Source: Bacilli bacterium
Lineage (GTDB): Bacteria; Bacillota_I; Bacilli_A; RFN20; CAG-826
Direction of reading: 5' to 3'
NCBI GenBank assembly: GCA_017445245.1
Contig: JAFSUM010000014.1
Coordinates: forward strand, 59,366-123,365
Length of the DNA: 64,000 nt
The translations under genes were made by a program, and so were the position numbers. The notes beneath the pieces are model-generated. The model was not told where the DNA came from. It ran no database searches and was given only the letters and a program-made list of their open reading frames with translations. Of the stretch, positions 1 to 28,122 are shown one piece after another; the first letter of the stretch is position 1; the number at the start of each line of letters is the position of its first letter.

Positions 1-3000
1 TTCCTTGGTCGAGAACTCGTCGAAGGAAATCTGGCCGTCCTTGAGGAAGGCAGAACCCTTAAGAACATCGACGAGGGCGCAGAGGACTTCCGTTTCCTGG
101 TCCCAACCATGGGAAGCGGTAATCGATTTGATGACGGATTTAAGGGTTTTTTGCGTCCCTTTCAGGTAGGCGCGGTCCAACTGATCGTCATCGAGGGTCG
201 TCGATTCGGCGCCGGTGTATTTGTCGACGAAGACATAGACGCCGGAGTTCTTGACGAAGGTCAGGATGAGGTCTTCAAAGACCGTGAGTTCGGGTAACTT
301 CTCAGTCGGAGAATAGAGGTCGTTGACCGAGGAAGGATTAAAGACCTTAGAATTACGGGAAGCATAGAAGAGCGGACGGAGCAAGGTATCGGAATCGAGC
401 GTTTCGAAGTTGAAGTTGCCGTCTTTGAGAGCTTGGTTATTCGCGGCGAGTTTGATGAGGCTCACCATGAATTCCGTCTCTTGATCGCGTTGCTTAAGGA
501 CGGCGGAAACGGCGGCACCGCTGCGATCGGTTCCGTTTTCTTCCATCGCGGTGACGAGCTGCTCGGCATTGCGGAAGAACCAGCCGATGTTCGCGTTCTC
601 CGTCTTTATCGAAGAGGAGACCGAGCCGGATTCGAAAGCCTTATAGAAGACGTTCGGGGGCAAGACGGCGCCAAGCGAATCCATCGAGCAGATATCGTTA
701 AGCGCCATGACGAGGGCCGGAACGGATTCAGCTTTGAATTCGGTGAGGCTATCGATGCCGCCAAGGCTATTGAGCGAGGCGACGACTTTGCCGAGTTTGA
801 CGAGTTCGGCGTCCCACCCTTCTTTGGTTTCGGGTAAGGCCATGGCGCGGACGAACGTGGTCGAAAGGGCCTTCTTGTCGGCGACGACTTGGGCGGATTT
901 GCTCGTCCAATAAGCCTCGCCTTTTTCTTCGAGGACCTGTTTGACGGTCTTTCCGCCAAAGGCATCCACTTTCTTCTCGGCATAGTCCGTGAAGAGTTTG
1001 AACTGCGAGTATTCGTTGATGGAGAGCATGATCTTGTCGGTGAAGAAATCATCGAAGACATAAGTACCATCGGGCATGACGAAGATATTCGATTTCGCCA
1101 GTTCGCGGACGAGTTCGATGACCGAAGGATCGAAGACGTCGAGGCTCGAGAGATCGAGGCCGTTGGCGGCGAGGTTCAAGATGGCCTGCATCGCGATGCC
1201 TTCGTTGGCCCAGTCTTCGGGGGTGACGAGGTTCTTATAGGTGACGCCGATCGCTTCGAGGTCGAGGATCTTGTCCGAATCCAAAAGGGTTCCGAGCAGG
1301 TTCGCGTCGAAGAACGGCGGGAGAATCTTGCGCAAGGTGGTCGATTTGCCGATATTGGCAAAGAGTTCGTCGATGCCGACTTTCGAGAGAGTGTCGATCG
1401 CTTCCGTCGAGGAGGATTCGGCAAGCTGGGAGAGTTCTTCGACGATGCCGGTCTCCGCAAGCTGACGGAACACCTGGACCGTGAAGAAGTTATCACGCCT
1501 GGTTCTCAGGTTATCGCCATCCCAATCGCTGGCGAGAGCGACGCCATCGAGAGTCTCATAAGTGATTTCGATACGGGAATCGGGATCGATATCCTTGAGG
1601 AAGTATTGGAGCAAGCTGGCGATGTTATAGTTCGTCACCTCTTTGGAGTCGATCGTATAGACGGGGTTAAGGATCGGCGAACCGGTGAGGATATCCAAAA
1701 GGTGCGTGACCTCATAATGCTTTTCCGCCGTCTCGAACGCGGTCAAGGCGTGGAAGAAGCTATTGGCGTCGACGGTACCGGTCTGGTCGGTCTTGGTGAT
1801 GGCACCGATGCTGGCGAGGACGTCGGGACAATATTTGGCAACCGAGATGATATTGGAGAGTTCTTTGCCAAGGTTCGGGCAGTTGAAGTCCACTTTTTCG
1901 ATGCCCATCTTGCCCAAAGCGCCATCCGCGGCGAGCAAAGGACGGACGTAATGGTTTCCCAAAACGGGAGACATGTACGTCATTAGTTGAGAGGAATCGA
2001 GGTTTTCGATGGCCGTCATGAAGGCATCGGCGATGGTGGGATTGAATTCAATCAACGTGCCATCGGAAGCGAATTCGAGGCCGGGGTGATTCTTATAATC
2101 GGCGAGGAAGGCCTGGCCCGCTTCGCTCTGGGTGAAATCGCCCGCGATGTCGAGGATGTGGCCGAGTTCACGCTTGTAGTTGATTTTCTCTTCGGAGGGT
2201 TTGTCGGGGTCGCCGATGAGACGGTCCGCAATCGCGCCGGTCTGATCGAGGAAGTCGGCGGGATCTTCGGGATCGGTGAGGACCTCTTGATTCAAGGTCA
2301 ACGCGCCGAACTGAAGGGCGGCGGGCAAAACATAGGAAATCAGGTCGGAGTCTAGCAAACAGATGCCCGACTGGCTTTCACCGGCATCGTTCGTGAGCGG
2401 TTCGCCGCTAGCGTCACGTTCGCCGATAAGGGCTTTGATGAGGGCGGGCATGTTCTTCGCGGCATTGGCGAGGAAGTCGGCGACCATTTCGTCTTCGCTA
2501 TTCATCGAAGTATCGGCAATCGCGTTTTTCGGCAAGGCTTCCATCGCTTCTTTCGAGGTGCGGAGGATCTGCGCTTCCTTGAACCAGTCGATTTCGGCAA
2601 AGCGCTTTTCGTTGAGTTCGCCTTCAGCGTTCATCGGCAAGAGGTCGGCAAAGATGGAATCGCCGTTATTCAAATAATCTTGGTAGACAAAGCCCGAAAG
2701 GACGGCGTTGACGTAAGCGCGAGCATCCGCATCTTCGGCCATGCGCTCCTCGATGCGATTAAGGGTCGCACTGGAGAAGGAACCTAAGCCATCATAAACG
2801 GGGACAAAGGTTTCAGCTTCAGCAGATTCGATGGTGTGGACAAATTCCGAGGAGGCGATGCGACCAAACGTCTGCATGCGCGCCTTTTTGGAAAGTTCGA
2901 AGTCGGCGGAGAGACCACTGCCCTGGAATTCTTCTTGGAGGAAGTCGACGTTCTCGGCGATTTCATAGGCCAAAGGCGTCAACGTCTCAAATAGTTCGCC

Positions 3001-20755: not shown

Positions 20756-23700
20756 ATGCGTTTATTCGGAGCAGGAAAACATCCATTACGCCTAGCCAAA
20801 AAGGCGCTCGCGTTCCTCATCGCGGCCGTCTCGCTTTCCTGCGCCCCGACCAAAGTCCAGGCCATCGCGCCAAACCCTGCTCATGAAACCGGCTATGGGG
20901 CCGAAGCCATCAAGCATCAGCTAAGCGCCTATTCCCATAACGGGATGCGTCTTTCCTTCGACGAATGTGAAGTCTTTATTCCTTCCAAAGACGAAAACCA
21001 TCCTAACGTCCTCGATTTCGGCGGGGCTAGTGGCGCCCTTCGTCTCCAAAACCTTTCGGTCCATGGTATCGATTTTATTCTCGATGCCCCGTTTTCCTAT
21101 AACGGACTAGACCGATATCTGAATCTATCGCTACTCTCCGATGACCTTTATTTCTCCCTGGATGCGTTAAACGAAGCAGAAACAACCTATAACGTCAAAT
21201 ACCATGCAAATCTGACTTCTTATGACGAAGGCGGAATCGACGACATGACGCAGGGCATCTCCTATTTCGAATACGGGGAACTGGATTATTTCGTCTATAC
21301 CATCCTCCAAACCCTCGGGGTTTCTTCAATCGATCTGAATTGGCATAGCGAGGAGAAAGCCACCTTCGACGCCGAAGCGATTCTTGATTCCTTTGACGCG
21401 ATGGAAGAAGTCGATTCCTCCCGTTTCCGCGTCGATATCCCCATTGGCGAGGAGACGTTGCCCCTAGGCCTGGTCCATGACGGGGATTACGTGCTCACTG
21501 GTATCGAATTCCCGATTCATCAAAGCGGCGTTCCCTCTTCTTATGAATTCTCGAATGGCCTTTCCGTCGATCTCTATGCTCGCATCGAGGATGCGACCCC
21601 CTCTTCCTTCGCCCCGGCCTATGACACGTCCGCCTACGTCGATATCATCGACTCGTTAGCCCTCTTCCGTACCATCGCTTCTTATGCCAACTCCAAAAAG
21701 TTTGGCATCGGCGCTTCCTTTGAACTCCTCCACAGCGAAGATGCCGTCGAAGGCGACGACGACCATTTCGAACGCGAGGCCGTAAGCGAAGCCGCCTATC
21801 TTCGCCTCTCCTCCAATCTCGATTTCTCCTCGTCGTTTATCGATGGGCTGAACGCGGAAATCACCTTCGGCCAACACGGCGGAAACGAATCTGTTTATGG
21901 TATCTATACCACCCAAGCGGAAGACGATACCCGTTTCTACTTAAACCTCGACGAAATCCTCAAGGTCTATACGCCCGTTGACGTCGGCAGCGCCCTCATT
22001 TCCTCCCTTGTCGACGCGTTCTCCGACGAAAGCATCCAAAACGAGGACATCATGAAGCTGCTTGGTGCCCTACTCACTTCTGGCGAAGGCATCCTCAAGG
22101 TCATCGAAGTCGTCAAGGACAGCGACTTTGGAAAGAACATCGAAAACGGTTATTACGAATCCGTCCTCGCCTCCGTTTCCGAACTCGACTTCCAAGATAA
22201 TTCCATCCGTATCGTCATCGACCTCACGAAAGCCGGCCTCCAAGGCACGGCGACCGTTCTTCTTAACGGCACGAGCGAATCGGCCAAACTCGCTTCCATT
22301 ACGCTTTCTAACGTCGGAGCGAAAGCGGATAACGCCTCCAAAACCTCGCTTTATATTAACGGCACCTTGGACATCCTGCCTTACGAAGTCCCCGTTTTCG
22401 ATCCCTCCGAATACGTCGAATTGACGCACCTTCCGGGCTGGGACGAGGAAATCCAAGCCATCGCCGAAACCGATCAATTAAGCGTGACGCTAGAAGGCTA
22501 TGCCCTAAAGACCGGCACCACTTCCGTCATCACCAACAAAGCCGCGAACTATAACCGCACCGAGCAAGGGTTTACCTTCTCGGGTTCTTTGGCCTTCGAC
22601 CTCAAGGAAAGGCTTGGCACCGGTAAGATGACCTTCACCGACCGCAAAGAAGGCTACGTCAATGACCACACCCTCCAAATCGATGTCACCGGGCCAGAAG
22701 GCGAAAACGATACCGATCTTAATGACATGACCGGTTCAGGCAACCAAAACGCGATGTATTTCCAATACGACTCCAAAAACGTCACGGAGACGAAAGGAAG
22801 CACCGCCTACAACAACGAAAACCGTACCGAGCCCGACAATTCGCCCTTAAAAGGCCGTTTCTCCATCCATTCGCTCGATGGCATCCTCAAGGTCGTTCAG
22901 GAGCTCTCCGGCAGCACGGATGTCCGCTTCGAGCGTTTGACCAATCTCATCGGTCGCCTTTCCGCGGAAACTCTCCTCACTAAAGTGATGGCAGGCCAGT
23001 ATTTCGAATTGCTTGCGACTGGCGTCCTCCAAAGCGCAACGATCGAAGAACGAAAGACCACTCTCGTCGTGAAGCCTGGCATCATCCAGCAGAATACCGG
23101 GATGACCTTAATCCTTGGCTATGACACCAACCTCAAGCCCAAGACCATCGAAGTCTATATGACCCTAGAAGGCGATGAAAACGATACCGAAGTCTATGCA
23201 AAGATTACTTTGGGCAACACCTCCTTCCCGGGTTACCAGTTCTCCTCGCACTCTTCTTCCGAGTTTACCGATTTCTCCTCGTTAAAGACCTTGGCCCAAT
23301 TCGCGATCGATACGATCAGTCTCGGTATGACCGACGATACAGCGAATAGCTGGACGACCTATAACCTCACCGGCAGCGCGGACCTCAAGCTTCTCGGGCT
23401 TTATACCGTTACGGTTACCATCAACGTGAACATTTACCTTAAAGGTACCCGCGTCCTCATCTTCGGAACGACCCATATCCCAAGAGTTCTCATCGCCACG
23501 AACGCCGAAACCGCCTGTAACTTCTTCTACGAAACAGACGGGGCGGACGAAGGCGGAACGATGTATCTATGCCGCCACACGGCTGAAAAATATGGTTTCT
23601 TGAATTTACAGACCCGCGACAAAGCCGAACACTGCAAAATCAAGGGCAGCGATTTCGGTGCGCACATCCTCGATTGGGTATGCGGCTACATGCTCAACTT

Positions 23701-24199
23701 CGGCGATACCATCATGGATAGAATTAACGGCGAAGACCAAAGCGTCGCCACCGAGTCGATGCACGGCGAAGACATCATCCGTTCCTTCTCGGTCGCCTCG
23801 GCCTCTTTGACCGCGCCCAGCTGGACGCTTAACATCGACCTCGGTGCCTTGGCCCACACTAGCATCTTAGGCGAGCTCCCCGCGACCATCACGGGCATCC
23901 AAGCCAAGTACATCGGCAGCGATGGCAAGAACTATCAAAAGAACGCCCTTTATTCCCTCAGTGGGCAAACGAGCATCCTAGGCATCGTCATCAAAGCGAC
24001 TCTCAGTTTCAAAGTCGGAAACATCAATTCAAGCAACGGCGCCTATACCGATGCCTGGTATAGCCAAAGCACCTATGCTTACACCAAATACGACAAGACA
24101 AAATATAACGGCACCGCGAATGCCATTTGGAATAGCAGCTACGGCAAAACCAACGCGAATAGCAATTACAAAAACGCGTCGTGGTACGTGACGCCTTAA
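20756..24199 (+). CDS. Giant exported protein, paralogue of 16095-19925
   Basis: 1147 aa. A basic N-terminus and hydrophobic stretch end in a SLSCAP lipobox-like site (Cys about residue 26). Just behind it lies a possible signal-peptidase-I site (VQA), so lipid anchoring is likely but not certain. The mature protein shares order and motifs with the 1276-aa protein upstream: SVHGIDF versus SLHGVNF, SYDEGGIDD versus SYDDGTVDP, ISYFEYGELDY versus IGQYEYGDLDW. It lacks the Ser-rich linkers. TATAAT lies exactly 6 nt before the ATG and there is no Shine-Dalgarno sequence, suggesting a leaderless mRNA. Its stop overlaps the convergent ruvX gene by 4 bp. Function unknown; surface structural role inferred. 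Confidence 0.75.
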   Translation: MRLFGAGKHPLRLAKKALAFLIAAVSLSCAPTKVQAIAPNPAHETGYGAEAIKHQLSAYSHNGMRLSFDECEVFIPSKDENHPNVLDFGGASGALRLQNLSVHGIDFILDAPFSYNGLDRYLNLSLLSDDLYFSLDALNEAETTYNVKYHANLTSYDEGGIDDMTQGISYFEYGELDYFVYTILQTLGVSSIDLNWHSEEKATFDAEAILDSFDAMEEVDSSRFRVDIPIGEETLPLGLVHDGDYVLTGIEFPIHQSGVPSSYEFSNGLSVDLYARIEDATPSSFAPAYDTSAYVDIIDSLALFRTIASYANSKKFGIGASFELLHSEDAVEGDDDHFEREAVSEAAYLRLSSNLDFSSSFIDGLNAEITFGQHGGNESVYGIYTTQAEDDTRFYLNLDEILKVYTPVDVGSALISSLVDAFSDESIQNEDIMKLLGALLTSGEGILKVIEVVKDSDFGKNIENGYYESVLASVSELDFQDNSIRIVIDLTKAGLQGTATVLLNGTSESAKLASITLSNVGAKADNASKTSLYINGTLDILPYEVPVFDPSEYVELTHLPGWDEEIQAIAETDQLSVTLEGYALKTGTTSVITNKAANYNRTEQGFTFSGSLAFDLKERLGTGKMTFTDRKEGYVNDHTLQIDVTGPEGENDTDLNDMTGSGNQNAMYFQYDSKNVTETKGSTAYNNENRTEPDNSPLKGRFSIHSLDGILKVVQELSGSTDVRFERLTNLIGRLSAETLLTKVMAGQYFELLATGVLQSATIEERKTTLVVKPGIIQQNTGMTLILGYDTNLKPKTIEVYMTLEGDENDTEVYAKITLGNTSFPGYQFSSHSSSEFTDFSSLKTLAQFAIDTISLGMTDDTANSWTTYNLTGSADLKLLGLYTVTVTINVNIYLKGTRVLIFGTTHIPRVLIATNAETACNFFYETDGADEGGTMYLCRHTAEKYGFLNLQTRDKAEHCKIKGSDFGAHILDWVCGYMLNFGDTIMDRINGEDQSVATESMHGEDIIRSFSVASASLTAPSWTLNIDLGALAHTSILGELPATITGIQAKYIGSDGKNYQKNALYSLSGQTSILGIVIKATLSFKVGNINSSNGAYTDAWYSQSTYAYTKYDKTKYNGTANAIWNSSYGKTNANSNYKNASWYVTP

Positions 24200-24630
24200 T
24201 CGTCCATCTGGCCGATTCGCTTTAGATAACGCATCAAGATAACCGCCGCAGCCGCGGAGTCGATGTTCTTCTTTTGCTTCTTCGCGTTCTTGCCCGACTG
24301 ATGGAGCAAGGCCGCCGCTTCGACGGTAGAGTTCCGTTCGTCCTGTTTCTCAACGGGAATACCAGGGAAGGCCTCGTTGAGGCTCTCGATAAAGTCCTCG
24401 ACGATCGGGGTCATCTCGCAGGGATCCCCGGAAGGGAAAAGCGGATACCCTATGACGAAATGCTCGATTTTCTCGATAAGCATCAGTTCTTTGATCGCGG
24501 CGATGGCATATTCGTAATGGCCACCGGGAAAGCGCGTTTCCTTTAACGGAGTAACAAGAGAACCGCTGCGCGAAAGGGCGAGGCCAACGCTCCCCTTTCC
24601 CAAATCGATCGAAAGAATGTTTTTGATCAC
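24196..24630 (-). CDS. ruvX: RuvX/YqgF-type putative Holliday junction resolvase
   Basis: 144 aa, standard family length. The RNase H-like fold motifs are present: DLGKGSVGLA (about residues 7-16), VIGYPL (about 59-64), DERNST (about 97-102) and IDSAAAAVIL (about 124-133), which together supply the acidic metal ligands. The family acts in 16S pre-rRNA processing and/or Holliday junction resolution. It starts with GTG; GATAAT lies 6 nt upstream with no Shine-Dalgarno sequence, another leaderless candidate. The 3' end overlaps the giant exported-protein gene by 4 bp. Confidence 0.85.
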   Translation of the reverse strand: MIKNILSIDLGKGSVGLALSRSGSLVTPLKETRFPGGHYEYAIAAIKELMLIEKIEHFVIGYPLFPSGDPCEMTPIVEDFIESLNEAFPGIPVEKQDERNSTVEAAALLHQSGKNAKKQKKNIDSAAAAVILMRYLKRIGQMDD

Positions 24631-24730: not shown

Positions 24731-24764
24731 AGAAAAGAAAACGCCTCGCATCACTGCGAGGTGT
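24731..24764 (-). terminator. Intrinsic terminator of the large minus-strand RNA
   Basis: Minus-strand stem CCTCGCA/TGCGAGG closing a GTGA tetraloop, followed by CGTTTTCTTTTC. It marks the 3' end of the structured transcript near 24733. Confidence 0.85.
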
Positions 24765-26173
24765 CCGCTTGGCTTGCTTGTTTAACGTCTTTGTTAGCTC
24801 CAACTCACGACGGGAACGCGCTATTAGTGGTTTACCACGCGGGAGATTCCAACCAACCGCTGTCTTGCGACATCGTCTCTTACCGGTTTGCTAGCTTGAA
24901 CTAGAACCATTCAGAGGCAAGTTTTTGTTTTTCCGGTTTACCGGCGAGGAGAGTTCTTATCTCCCTAGGCTTATCAGGACTTTCCTGGTAAGTCTCGGCT
25001 ACGGCTGAGGGGTACGTCTTCATTCGCCCTCATGCTTTGACCACGTTCCGACTTTGCGATTCAGGGTGGAACGACTTCCTCGAGGACCCGAAGGTCTTCG
25101 GCAGATCTGGCTGAACCAGATTCGAGGCATTTCCAGCGGTTTACCGCGCGCCGAGCCTCTTTTGGCACCAATCAGTTATGAATTCCTGATTGTTTTCGGA
25201 TTCTCCTGATCCCAAAGATCCGAAGAATTCGTATTCCCTTTATTTGGTTTCACCAGCTAAGGGGCCTCGCCCCACCCTTGTTTAGGGGGTGGTTACCGTA
25301 TCGGGCTGGTTCGGTGATTGACCGTCATGCCCGGCGGAGACGAGCTTCTTGCGTTTACGCCGGCCGCTCGATCTTGGCCGTGGGTCTTTCTCCCGATTCG
25401 CGGAATCACTTCCGCATCCTCGATTTATTTTGTTGGTTCTACCAACGAACGGTGGGGATTCCGTTCCGCGCATCGAATTTCTTCGCAGCACGTTGACCGG
25501 TGGGCTTGACGCGGAAGCGCGGTTTCCATCGGGACCGAGGTTTCAGATGGTATCTGATGTATCGGCTATCCCGTTAGGGAGGATTACTCCTTCCTCTTGG
25601 GAGGTTTGCTCGCGGTTAGGCGAGGTCTACCTTCGTCCTTCGTTTTTCCGGTGGTACCGGGGCAAGGAGGATTCTTGCCGGGTATTGGCCCTTCGCTCTT
25701 GCGTTCCTCTTGCTAACGCTTGAGGAGTCTAGGAGCACGCAACGTTTTTCCAGTGTACTGGGTGGGCGTTTCCGTTCCCGCGAGGGTGTCCGATGAAGTT
25801 CGGTTGGCCCTGCTTCCGAATATTCCTTTTCCAAGGCTGTTCGGAGGGTCCCTTTTCTCAAGTTTACTTGCCGCCAGGATCCTGGGCGGTGGCATCTCCT
25901 CATTTCAGGGGAGGCCCTTTGGATCTTCCGTCCTCACGCTGAGAGTCTCGACGCTTTCTGGAAGGCTTCCTCTTTTTTCGGTTTACCGATTGGCTGGAGT
26001 TCCCTTTCTGATGAGATTCAAGTCGCATCAGATCCCTTCTTTCGAAGGAGCAGACCTTTGAGGCTCTTTTCGGCCCTTGGGGCATCTTACATTCCCTTGA
26101 AAAACATCGATGTTATCGACATTTTTTCATTCCCACCATCTTCGAGGATTTGCATCCCCGTTCCTTGGTGGTG
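24733..26173 (-). ncRNA. Putative giant structured RNA (~1.44 kb) built from ~107-nt hairpin modules
   Basis: No convincing gene lies in this stretch. The minus strand has a promoter (26180-26207) and an intrinsic terminator (24731-24764). Small hairpins recur at 24827, 24933, 25136, 25245, 25351, 25432, 25544, 25648, 25750, 25859, 25978 and 26107: 10 of 11 intervals are 81-129 nt (mostly 102-119), one is double (203). Most read NNGG-UAAA-CCNN or a close variant on the minus strand and are followed by A-rich single-stranded linkers. Other helices carry tetraloops that are stable only on this strand: GCAA (26144-26159, 24861-24872), GAAA (26035-26048), GGAA (25825-25836), GUAA (25580-25591), GUGA (25400-25415), UUCG (25085-25096). 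The 5' end folds as CCACC/GGUGG. It is longer than GOLLD, ROOL or OLE RNAs; I cannot assign a class. Confidence 0.7.
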
Positions 26174-26179
26174 ACGACA

Positions 26180-26207
26180 AGTTTATGCCGTTTTATGAGG
26201 AATGCAA
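26180..26207 (-). promoter_or_regulatory. Promoter of the giant RNA
   Basis: On the minus strand, -35 TTGCAT (26207-26202), 16-nt spacer and -10 TAAACT (26185-26180). The predicted start is near 26173. A/T tracts just upstream could act as an UP element. Confidence 0.7.
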
Positions 26208-26240
26208 CACTTTTTTGCAAAATTTTTTTAAAAACTTTTT

Positions 26241-26260
26241 TAGATATATTTATATATCTA
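26241..26260. repeat. Perfect AT palindrome between the giant RNA and pepF promoters
   Basis: TAGATATA/TATATCTA (8 bp) around a TTTA loop, flanked on both sides by a CTTTTTT tract. It lies inside an almost pure A/T stretch (about 26209-26280) between two divergent promoters. It could be an operator, a nucleoid-protein site or simply UP-element DNA. Confidence 0.55.
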
Positions 26261-26349: not shown

Positions 26350-28122
26350 ATGGCCAAAGAACAATGGGACCTCTCGGTATTCTTCAAAACGGAAGAAGAA
26401 TTCCTAGAAACCTTAGAACAATTCAAATCCCTCATCCCCACCCTAGCGAGTTATCAAGGACAGCTAACCGACGAAACCAAACTCGCCGAATTCCTCCGCC
26501 TCGACAAGAAAGCGAACCTCTTGCTCGTCCGTTGCTATTTCTTCGCATCCATGCGCAGCGACCGCAATAAGAAGGACGTCGCGAACGCGCAGGATCTCAT
26601 GAAAGTCCATATCGCGATGCAATCTTATGGATCCGCGGTTTCTTTCTTATCGCCCGAACTCATCGCAATCGGAAAAGACAAGCTCACCGACTTCTTGAAA
26701 CGTAACCCCGAGTTCGATGAGTACTCGCACCAATTCGATTCGCTCTTCCTCTCCGTCGACCACGTACTATCCGCGCGCGAAGAAGGATTATTAAGCGCCT
26801 TCTCCCCCGTCACCGGCGGAATCCGTAGTCTCTATTCCCAACTCACCACCGCGGATGGCAAACCCTCGAAAGCAAAACTATCTAACGGAGAAGAAGTCAC
26901 CGTTACGCAAGCCAATTGGACCTCTTTAGTCGCCCATCAGGACAAACAAGAAGACCGCAAGGCCATCTTTGAAGCCCTCTATTCCTATTACGAAGACCAT
27001 AAATCCACCTATGGCGAGATCTATAATCTCACCCTTCAAAGCCAAGTCGCTAACATGCGCACGCGCGGATATAAATCTATATTAGAATCTCATCTCGCCG
27101 GCCAAGCGATTCCTTTGGATGTCTTCCACACCTTGATCAAGACCGCTTCCGAAGGCTCGGCCCCGTTAAAGAAGTATCTCGAAATCCGTCGGAAAGCGTT
27201 TGGTCTAGAAAAGATTCGTTCCTATGACCGTTTCCTCCAACTCGCCAAACCCAAGACCAAATATACCTACGACCAGGCCCGCGAACTCTTCTACGACTCC
27301 ATCAAGAATTTCCCGGAAGACTTCCAAGAGAAGGCCAGGGAAGTTACCAAAGACGGCTATGTCGACGTACATCCTGGCGAAGGTAAGCGTAGCGGCGCCT
27401 ATTCTAATGGCGGCTATGACTTCCACCCCTTTATCCTGTTGAATTTCGTCGGCGAACTCGATGACGTCTTCACCCTCGCCCACGAATCCGGCCACTCGAT
27501 TCATACCCTTTATAGCGAAGAAGGCCAGCCGACCCTCCGTCAGGACTACACCATCTTCGTCGCCGAAATCGCCTCGACCTTCAACGAGCATAACCTCCTC
27601 GACTACTTGCTCCAACGCGGCGATCTCGATAAAGATGACAAGATCTTCCTCCTTCAAAAGGCCATCGACGAAATCGTCAGCACCTTCTACCGTCAGACCC
27701 TATTCGGCCATTACGAATACCTCATCGCCGAGAAAGCCGAAAAGGGCGAACCCATCAACTGGCAGGTCTGCTCCAACGTCATGATCGATCTCTATAAGCA
27801 ATACTATGGAATCGACATCTCCGAAGAGAAGGTCAAACCTCTTGTCTGGGCCTATATCCCCCACCTCTTCAACTCGCCTTTCTACGTCTATCAATATGCG
27901 ACGAGCTTTACCTCTTCGATGTTGCTCTACGCCAAGGTCAAAGCCCAAGAAGAAGGCGCCTTCGAGCGCTATATCTCGCTTCTAAAATCAGGCGGTTCGG
28001 ACTTCCCCGTCGCCCAGGTCAAAGCCGCGGGTGTCGACCTAACGACCCCTGAGCCCTACCTGGCCGTCGTGAAGCGGATGAGCGAACTCGTCGATCAACT
28101 CGAAAAGCTTCTCGCCGAATAA
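26350..28122 (+). CDS. pepF: Oligoendopeptidase F (M3 metallopeptidase)
   Basis: 590 aa, typical for PepF. The N-terminal PepF domain begins at WDLSVFF. The zinc site HESGH (about residues 377-381, followed by SIH) is intact, with the downstream Glu in the FVAEIASTFNE helix (about 399-409). It hydrolyses short peptides in the cytosol. AAGGAGG lies 9 nt before the ATG. It is a single gene between the divergent giant-RNA promoter and its own terminator. Confidence 0.95.
   Translation: MAKEQWDLSVFFKTEEEFLETLEQFKSLIPTLASYQGQLTDETKLAEFLRLDKKANLLLVRCYFFASMRSDRNKKDVANAQDLMKVHIAMQSYGSAVSFLSPELIAIGKDKLTDFLKRNPEFDEYSHQFDSLFLSVDHVLSAREEGLLSAFSPVTGGIRSLYSQLTTADGKPSKAKLSNGEEVTVTQANWTSLVAHQDKQEDRKAIFEALYSYYEDHKSTYGEIYNLTLQSQVANMRTRGYKSILESHLAGQAIPLDVFHTLIKTASEGSAPLKKYLEIRRKAFGLEKIRSYDRFLQLAKPKTKYTYDQARELFYDSIKNFPEDFQEKAREVTKDGYVDVHPGEGKRSGAYSNGGYDFHPFILLNFVGELDDVFTLAHESGHSIHTLYSEEGQPTLRQDYTIFVAEIASTFNEHNLLDYLLQRGDLDKDDKIFLLQKAIDEIVSTFYRQTLFGHYEYLIAEKAEKGEPINWQVCSNVMIDLYKQYYGIDISEEKVKPLVWAYIPHLFNSPFYVYQYATSFTSSMLLYAKVKAQEEGAFERYISLLKSGGSDFPVAQVKAAGVDLTTPEPYLAVVKRMSELVDQLEKLLAE

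Follow-up and report, generated by a model that had tools for sequence, protein, structure and literature searches.

A giant structured RNA was identified in the window (the whole 64,000-nucleotide stretch of DNA analyzed here), where comparison of its copies shows a stand-alone, conserved, noncoding, and strongly covarying unit. The RNA family and its covariation-backed fold are almost certainly real, and the reading that we favor, with a probability of about 0.75, is that of a free-standing, tightly folded RNA particle acting in trans, a figure that leaves any step of oligomer assembly aside. A sequence-only reading of this DNA had proposed a giant structured RNA outside the classes that it recognized; the absence of an Rfam match, the absence of protein-like conservation, and strong covariation all bear the proposal out.

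The RNA lies in a gap of ~1.72 kb that has no plausible gene, between ruvX (24196-24630, minus strand; Pfam RuvX) and the gene for an M3 peptidase (26350-28122, plus strand), and the unit length across the family is ~1.45 kb. Its two domains differ in their degree of conservation. The main features are as follows, the stems counted being those above threshold in the covariation scan described below.

24735..26173, minus strand: giant structured RNA, predicted transcript of ~1.44 kb (23 other copies aligned over the full length; covariation; ends taken from promoter and terminator)
25164..26172, minus strand: 5' domain, ~1.0 kb, variable in sequence, with covarying helices (helix table; 30 of 41 stems, three of them pseudoknots)
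24786..25159, minus strand: 3' domain, ~0.4 kb, the most conserved part and the source of covariance model R1 (8 of 41 stems)
26202..26207, minus strand: -35 element TTGCAT (alignment of copies)
26180..26185, minus strand: -10 element TAAACT, 16-nt spacer (alignment of copies)
24733..24765, minus strand (24761-24744 in the terminator scan): intrinsic terminator, a hairpin that has a GNRA loop, and a U run (paired fraction 1.00 over 10 pairs, 3 of which are compensatory)
26239..26260, no strand assigned: DNA palindrome, 33 bp ahead of the -35 element, the match containing TAGATATATAAATATATCTA (alignment of copies, pattern search, covarying arms)

The statement in the sequence-only reading that the region has no plausible gene agrees with the alignment. 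A 95-amino-acid sense open reading frame (ORF; 25616-25903) is open in just 2 of 26 aligned copies, one of which is that of the window, and two antisense ORFs are open in 5 and 3 copies, respectively. When openness in any frame is counted over the same three stretches, the numbers are 4 of 26 for the sense stretch and 11 and 10 of 26 for the antisense ones. No conserved gene was found within the unit among the 26 copies, and protein-like conservation, which had been named beforehand as evidence against an RNA, was looked for in the same copies and was absent.

Signals at the unit ends and the consensus fold

In most copies, the RNA is preceded by an A/T-rich stretch and a promoter consisting of a TTGAC or TTGCA -35 element and a TATAGT -10 element, with a spacer of mostly 16 nt. 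The transcription start predicted from the aligned promoter, near 26173, coincides with the coordinate proposed earlier. A simple promoter scan detected no promoter on either strand, and the promoter was recognized solely through the aligned copies; the minus-strand promoter of the sequence-only reading is thus conserved, although the simple scan missed it. The strong minus-strand terminator that had also been proposed was found by the terminator scan and is conserved, with compensatory changes, across copies, including six divergent members that were inspected. Since the scan gave 6 terminator-like sites in total against 4.0 expected by chance, the weight of this assignment rests on conservation.

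A palindrome of the type TAGATACNNNGTATCTA lies exactly 33 bp before the -35 element in 14 of the 37 fetched pieces (two of which are without the 5' end). The distance is 23 and 43 bp in two further pieces, and inspection by eye added two with 31 and 34 bp, so that about half of the copies have a palindrome and the remaining copies do not. Its arms covary across copies. In the genus (31 genomes), the exact pattern has 20 matches spread over 12 genomes; read backwards, it has 4 matches. Ten of these 12 genomes carry the RNA and account for 15 matches, 12 of which are located upstream of RNA copies; all matches adjoin RNA copies in genomes G000, G002, G003, G004, G017, G018, G024, and G027, and the other three are away from the RNA in G021 and G030. 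The remaining five matches belong to G023 and G029, the two genomes of the 12 in which the RNA was not detected. We infer that a dedicated regulator may bind the palindrome.

The predicted folding energy of the RNA strand is far below that of shuffled sequences (z = -9.5; 40 dinucleotide shuffles); the opposite strand gives a z score of -7.3, and three neighboring coding controls give -0.5 to -1.0 (15 shuffles each). The minus-strand GNRA and UUCG tetraloops noted in the sequence-only reading recur in the consensus structure, in which the window copy has seven GNRA loops (GCAA, GAAA twice, GGAA, GUAA, and GUGA twice) and one UUCG loop. RNAalifold assigns the consensus an energy of -697 kcal/mol, to which covariation contributes a large term. 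Eight consensus hairpins (columns 294, 421, 529, 626, 927, 1145, 1355, and 1465) share a G-URNA-C loop, mostly GUAAAC and often followed by an A-rich stretch; we know of no name for such a module.

Covariation was assessed in structure-blind MAFFT alignments. The first comprised 24 copies with 55 to 98% identity, selected by score and end filters. The second was derived from a core alignment of 29 of the 37 pieces, reduced to 26 by the removal of near-duplicates; four divergent copies (L053, L058, L059, and L118) and four partial ones were left out of the 29. All column pairs were scored by a G statistic with average-product correction and compared with null alignments simulated on a tree, with the substitutions of each branch placed at random columns. 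The script is our own and imitates the R-scape null, without being R-scape itself.

At an E value of <0.05 over all column pairs, all 7 significant pairs (24 sequences) and all 11 significant pairs (26 sequences) fell inside the nested structure, as did 39 of 42 pairs at an E value of <5 with 26 sequences. Within the structure, 73 of 374 pairs (24 sequences) and 72 of 392 pairs (26 sequences) were significant. With 26 sequences, 38 of 68 helices had at least one significant pair, or 37 of 65 helices in the RNA when three helices located at least in part upstream of the predicted start (the palindrome and two reaching the promoter) are excluded. Because two of the three outliers at an E value of <5 neighbored each other in one stem, a blind scan for stacked stems was made, in which 46 stems beat all of 20 simulations, 41 of them nested and 5 extra. 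A stricter scan, run on 25 sequences without the G020 copy and with 100 simulations, left 41 stems that exceed the 95% null maximum, of which 37 are nested and 4 are extra. By place, one of these stems is the palindrome, 30 belong to the 5' domain, 8 to the 3' domain, and one to the terminator, and one is a contact between the domains; the nested stems of the RNA, terminator included, number 36. By this R-scape-style test, covariation is strong, and a lack of it in the proposed helices, which would have spoken against a structured RNA, was not observed.

Distribution and genomic sites

The genome from which the window derives (1.35 Mb; 74% complete) has a second full-length copy with 76% identity. 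The genus is represented by 31 genomes, 19 of which hold one to three copies of the RNA according to a blastn search of 193 genomes; a stray 31-base match (fetched as L061) was seen in G127, a member of another family. When 279 genomes of the order were scanned with covariance model R1 (141 positions), 22 gave a match; 18 of these belong to the same genus and 4 to a single sister genus in the same family, for which 37 genomes were searched. The model finds 18 genomes of the genus rather than 19 because a contig of G012 ends inside the model region. Searches of more than 40 genomes used stricter filters that lose weak matches; under these filters, the window's own genome was the sole match in a class-level sample of 395 genomes, and five of 146 genomes in a family-level sample matched, all of the same genus. 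No occurrence was found beyond the genus and the sister genus in the samples searched.

A 20-base pattern retrieved 27 stretches from a collection of named genomes, all with titles naming Erysipelotrichaceae, Bacillales, or Bacilli bacteria and all from uncultured or metagenome-assembled bacteria. Six titles name the rumen or abomasum, and isolate names with RUG or RUI among the matches presumably indicate the rumen too. Phage and plasmid records gave no matches with two different copies as queries, and viral contigs gave none with three patterns.

Within the genus, ruvX divides the genomes into two groups. The RuvX proteins of 22 genomes have at least 59% identity to that of the window (its own genome included) and those of 7 genomes have 32 to 36%, and the RNA is present in 18 of the 22 and in none of the 7. 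No ruvX was found in G012, which has the RNA, or in G009, which lacks it. The RNA was not detected by blastn in G005, a genome rated 100% complete; nearly all of the genomes are fragmented drafts, and contigs break inside some copies. Four members (L053, L058, L059, and L118) form a divergent branch in which the profile spans 1.59 to 1.73 kb including upstream sequence, compared with ~1.56 kb in ordinary copies; the terminator is retained in each of them. An octamer from the conserved 3' domain, GCGCGCGG, was not found in these four or in L116.

The 37 fetched pieces represent 36 copies or fewer, as the G021 copy is split over two contigs and the two pieces of G020 are perhaps one copy. Grouped by their nearest genes, with split pieces counted apart and one join made at 26% identity, they fall into 30 groups, or about 30 sites. 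The neighbors are mostly ordinary metabolic genes, and because no gene is common to most sites, the RNA probably acts in trans. Of 64 neighbors, 60 were scanned; the scan omitted the four genes of L036 and L039, which nearly duplicate those of L038 and L037. Among the best 25 of 61 Pfam families of adjacent genes, the commonest is the M18 peptidase family, with 5 of the 60 scanned neighbors; a functional link to this aminopeptidase was rejected, as four of the five come from the same side of a single site group. The leading families among these 25 are not phage structural genes, and hits to defense models are scattered among the neighbors.

The site of the window copy is itself variable. In G003, G004, and G027, which carry the RNA at other sites, the M3 peptidase gene is separated from ruvX by roughly 85 to 125 bp and the site is empty, and in G001, G002, G017, and G019 some 1.2 to 1.3 kb of other, gene-like sequence lies between the two genes. 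None of 28 other ruvX loci, examined with flanks of up to 1.5 kb, holds the RNA. On the other side of ruvX in the window, a 1,147-amino-acid ORF (20756-24199, plus strand) without Pfam matches has relatives with 27 to 52% identity that adjoin ruvX in several genomes of the genus.

These sites bear on the alternative that survives best, namely, that the RNA is a selfish gene that spreads by recombination or with a helper acting in trans and whose fold serves its own spread and not the cell. About 30 sites for some 36 copies, the empty window site in three genomes, the patchy presence, and a suggestive mosaic similarity between copies all fit a gene that moves. However, no transposase, integrase, or reverse transcriptase occurs among the best 25 of 61 Pfam families of the neighbors, phage and plasmid records have no match, and no insertion signature was found at the fetched copies, in which neither the unit ends nor target duplications could be discerned. 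Related genomes have some sites in common (G025 and G030; the M18 site), so the RNA is inherited vertically as well. On balance, we consider a selfish gene rather unlikely.

Two copies are of a half-and-half kind. G020 C1 (L035) shares 724 nt at 99.9% identity with the copy of another species, in the 3' half only, and G003 C198 (L046) has the upstream neighbor of one G024 copy and the downstream neighbor of the other. Each sits either on a short contig or at the end of a contig and could stem from real recombination or from a chimeric assembly. At L050 (9017-9076), a 3'-terminal fragment comprising part of the terminator lies ~800 bases downstream of a full copy in G004 and is perhaps an older remnant.

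Pseudoknots and the contact between the domains

The four extra, nonnested stems of the stricter scan are three pseudoknots (PK1 to PK3) and one contact between hairpin loops of the two domains (K1), at the following positions.

25794..25798, minus strand: K1, half in the 5' domain, CUUCA, hairpin loop (covariation stem scan; 1 of 100 null simulations reaches K1)
25018..25022, minus strand: K1, half in the 3' domain, UGAAG, hairpin loop (covariation stem scan)
25455..25458, minus strand: PK1, loop side (0 of 100 null simulations reach PK1)
25417..25420, minus strand: PK1, downstream side (covariation stem scan)
25369..25372, minus strand: PK2, loop side (0 of 100 null simulations; the window copy pairs poorly in the aligned register)
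25340..25343, minus strand: PK2, downstream side (covariation stem scan)
25267..25270, minus strand: PK3, upstream side (0 of 100 null simulations reach PK3)
25256..25259, minus strand: PK3, downstream side (covariation stem scan)

In the window copy, K1 pairs fully and PK1 to PK3 pair just partly in the aligned register. A candidate long-range helix closing part of the 5' domain (columns 178 to 182 with 939 to 943) has no significant pairs and conflicts with PK2. Two further candidates, both compensatory by eye, were rejected: PK4 (columns 611 to 614 with 642 to 645) passed the scan with 20 simulations and failed that with 100, and PK5 (columns 408 to 411 with 435 to 438) reached only the looser threshold of the former and failed the latter. 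When stems were first sought by pair fractions, 28 emerged, including six that lie outside the nested structure and were attributed to chance; the covariation scan superseded this search.

The two sides of K1 change together across copies, as CUUCG/CGAAG, CUUCA/UGAAG, CUUCC/GGAAG (with a shift of one column in one copy), CUCC/GGAG, and CUUUG/CAAAG. G019 has two copies in which both sides have changed, one with CUCC/GGAG and the other with CUUUG/CAAAG. Each pairs with itself; of the cross-combinations, one mismatches and the other might pair by means of two G-U wobbles, so the loops are not fully exclusive. K1 could form within one molecule or between molecules, and the G019 variants lean towards an intramolecular or same-copy contact, short of proof. 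Loops that switch between palindromes, the intermolecular signature of OLE and GOLLD, were not seen in the 26 aligned rows, in which palindromic loops occur as AGCU (23 rows) and GAAUUC (18 rows) with no change of type.

As K1 joins a loop of the 5' domain to a loop of the 3' domain, it argues for one RNA, and the option left by the sequence-only reading of two RNAs in tandem, posing as one, is not favored. The unequal conservation of the two domains would suit such a pair, but the unit has a single promoter at the 5' end and a single terminator at the 3' end, and the partial copies in the fetched loci are at contig ends only, apart from one short 3' remnant. Two tandem RNAs are therefore very unlikely.

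Known RNA classes and a possible mode of action

The whole window was scanned against Rfam, giving ten tRNAs and no match in the RNA region. A search of 4,227 Rfam families with the window RNA and another member likewise gave no significant match to a known class; a match of this kind over the full length is what the sequence-only reading had named as a refutation. Matches to HOTAIR_3, SAM_alpha, and Glutamine-II in a permissive window scan and to mir-287 (E value, 0.024) and MEG8_3 in the scan of the other member were far below gathering scores and were dismissed as chance. Domains of group I and II introns were not matched in Rfam, and no reverse transcriptase is found among the best 25 of 61 neighbor families.

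The same library identified genuine ROOL RNAs, both over the full model, at L089 of G003 (1501-2065, plus strand; 180 bits) and at L090 of G011 (1501-2046, minus strand; 132 bits), and these loci serve as a control for the absence of a match to the giant RNA. Both genomes hold ROOL and the giant RNA at separate loci. No match to the giant RNA reached the gathering score of ROOL (RF03087), and a profile of the giant RNA had no hits in the two ROOL loci at an E value of <0.001. Neither GOLLD (RF02032; window, another member, and the 31 genomes of the genus) nor OLE (whole-library scans) was matched, both searches being made without a positive control.

ROOL is described in PMC12286853 as large and ornate, with pseudoknots and no known protein partner, as having a studied member from cow rumen, and as nonessential in one strain; GOLLD is described there as very large and structured, with kissing loops and many members exceeding 800 nt. 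ROOL and GOLLD form RNA-only multimers and OLE forms a dimer with a kissing loop, according to the same paper, and the length of OLE is given as about 600 nt in PMC9723947. An RNA of ~1.45 kb that is large and ornate, has pseudoknots, occurs in rumen Bacilli, and has ROOL in two genomes of its genus could be regarded as an extreme member of one of these classes, as the sequence-only reading had allowed. That option is not supported: the ROOL and GOLLD models do not match, the ROOL model has 574 positions, the giant RNA has its own covarying contacts and is longer than the sizes cited for GOLLD and OLE, and no link to phages or tRNA arrays was found. The phage or prophage or tRNA-island setting of ROOL was not seen in phage records, viral contigs, neighbors, or the tRNA scan; no tRNA array was found in 35 fetched loci, some of which are short contigs, tRNAs occur in 3 of the 35 and none closer than ~3.6 kb, tmRNA occurs in 2 (~2.2 and 2.5 kb away), and the nearest tRNA within the window is over 15 kb from the RNA. 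Membership in ROOL, GOLLD, or OLE, the last of which it resembles as a large Bacillota RNA, is thus highly improbable, and the likeness to ROOL and GOLLD would be of kind and not of kinship.

A long RNA of Lactobacillus salivarius offers a further comparison. PMC5643018 describes an abundant noncoding RNA of 520 nt, located on a megaplasmid and present in 34 of 45 genomes of one species, the deletion mutant of which is viable. Like the giant RNA, it is a long noncoding bacterial RNA with a patchy presence, whereas the giant RNA has ordinary genes as neighbors and is often present at least twice per genome. The literature that was searched, in which few subscription papers were covered, held no description of such an RNA.

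A cis-regulatory leader or long untranslated region would fit the orientation of the nearest genes, 46 of 64 of which (and 23 of 31 downstream neighbors) are co-oriented with the RNA, but a conserved terminator closes the unit and the downstream genes vary by site, making this reading scarcely credible.

For the favored reading of a free-standing RNA that acts in trans, we propose that the 5' domain (~1.0 kb) and the 3' domain (~0.4 kb) would fold separately, tied by the predicted covarying loop-loop contact. The RNA would be transcribed at a high level, and many copies would be made under the control of a palindrome-binding protein. Several molecules may then assemble together, as ROOL and GOLLD do, into an RNA-only complex; by analogy with these classes, such homo-oligomer assembly is plausible, with the odds somewhat against it. 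The complex would be useful to the cell and probably not essential, because the RNA is undetected in G005. A bolder picture, tentative and on the whole improbable, is that of a ribosome-scale, protein-free RNA machine with two domains and a length of 1.45 to about 1.6 kb, near the size of 16S rRNA, that would be locked by a kissing loop between its domains and would form a homo-oligomeric particle. Paralogues in the same cell would drift to separate loop codes, each building its own particle, and the gene would spread under its own promoter switch.

Few classes of large ornate RNAs without a known job have been recognized (ROOL, GOLLD, and OLE), and they are an open puzzle of bacterial RNA biology. 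The new class is roughly twice as long, lies outside 4,227 Rfam families, has no phage link that we could find, and often occurs in at least two copies per genome. Its natural variants already yield a covariation-backed model with pseudoknots, and the divergent copies in one cell may serve as a natural test of whether these RNAs assemble exclusively with their own kind.
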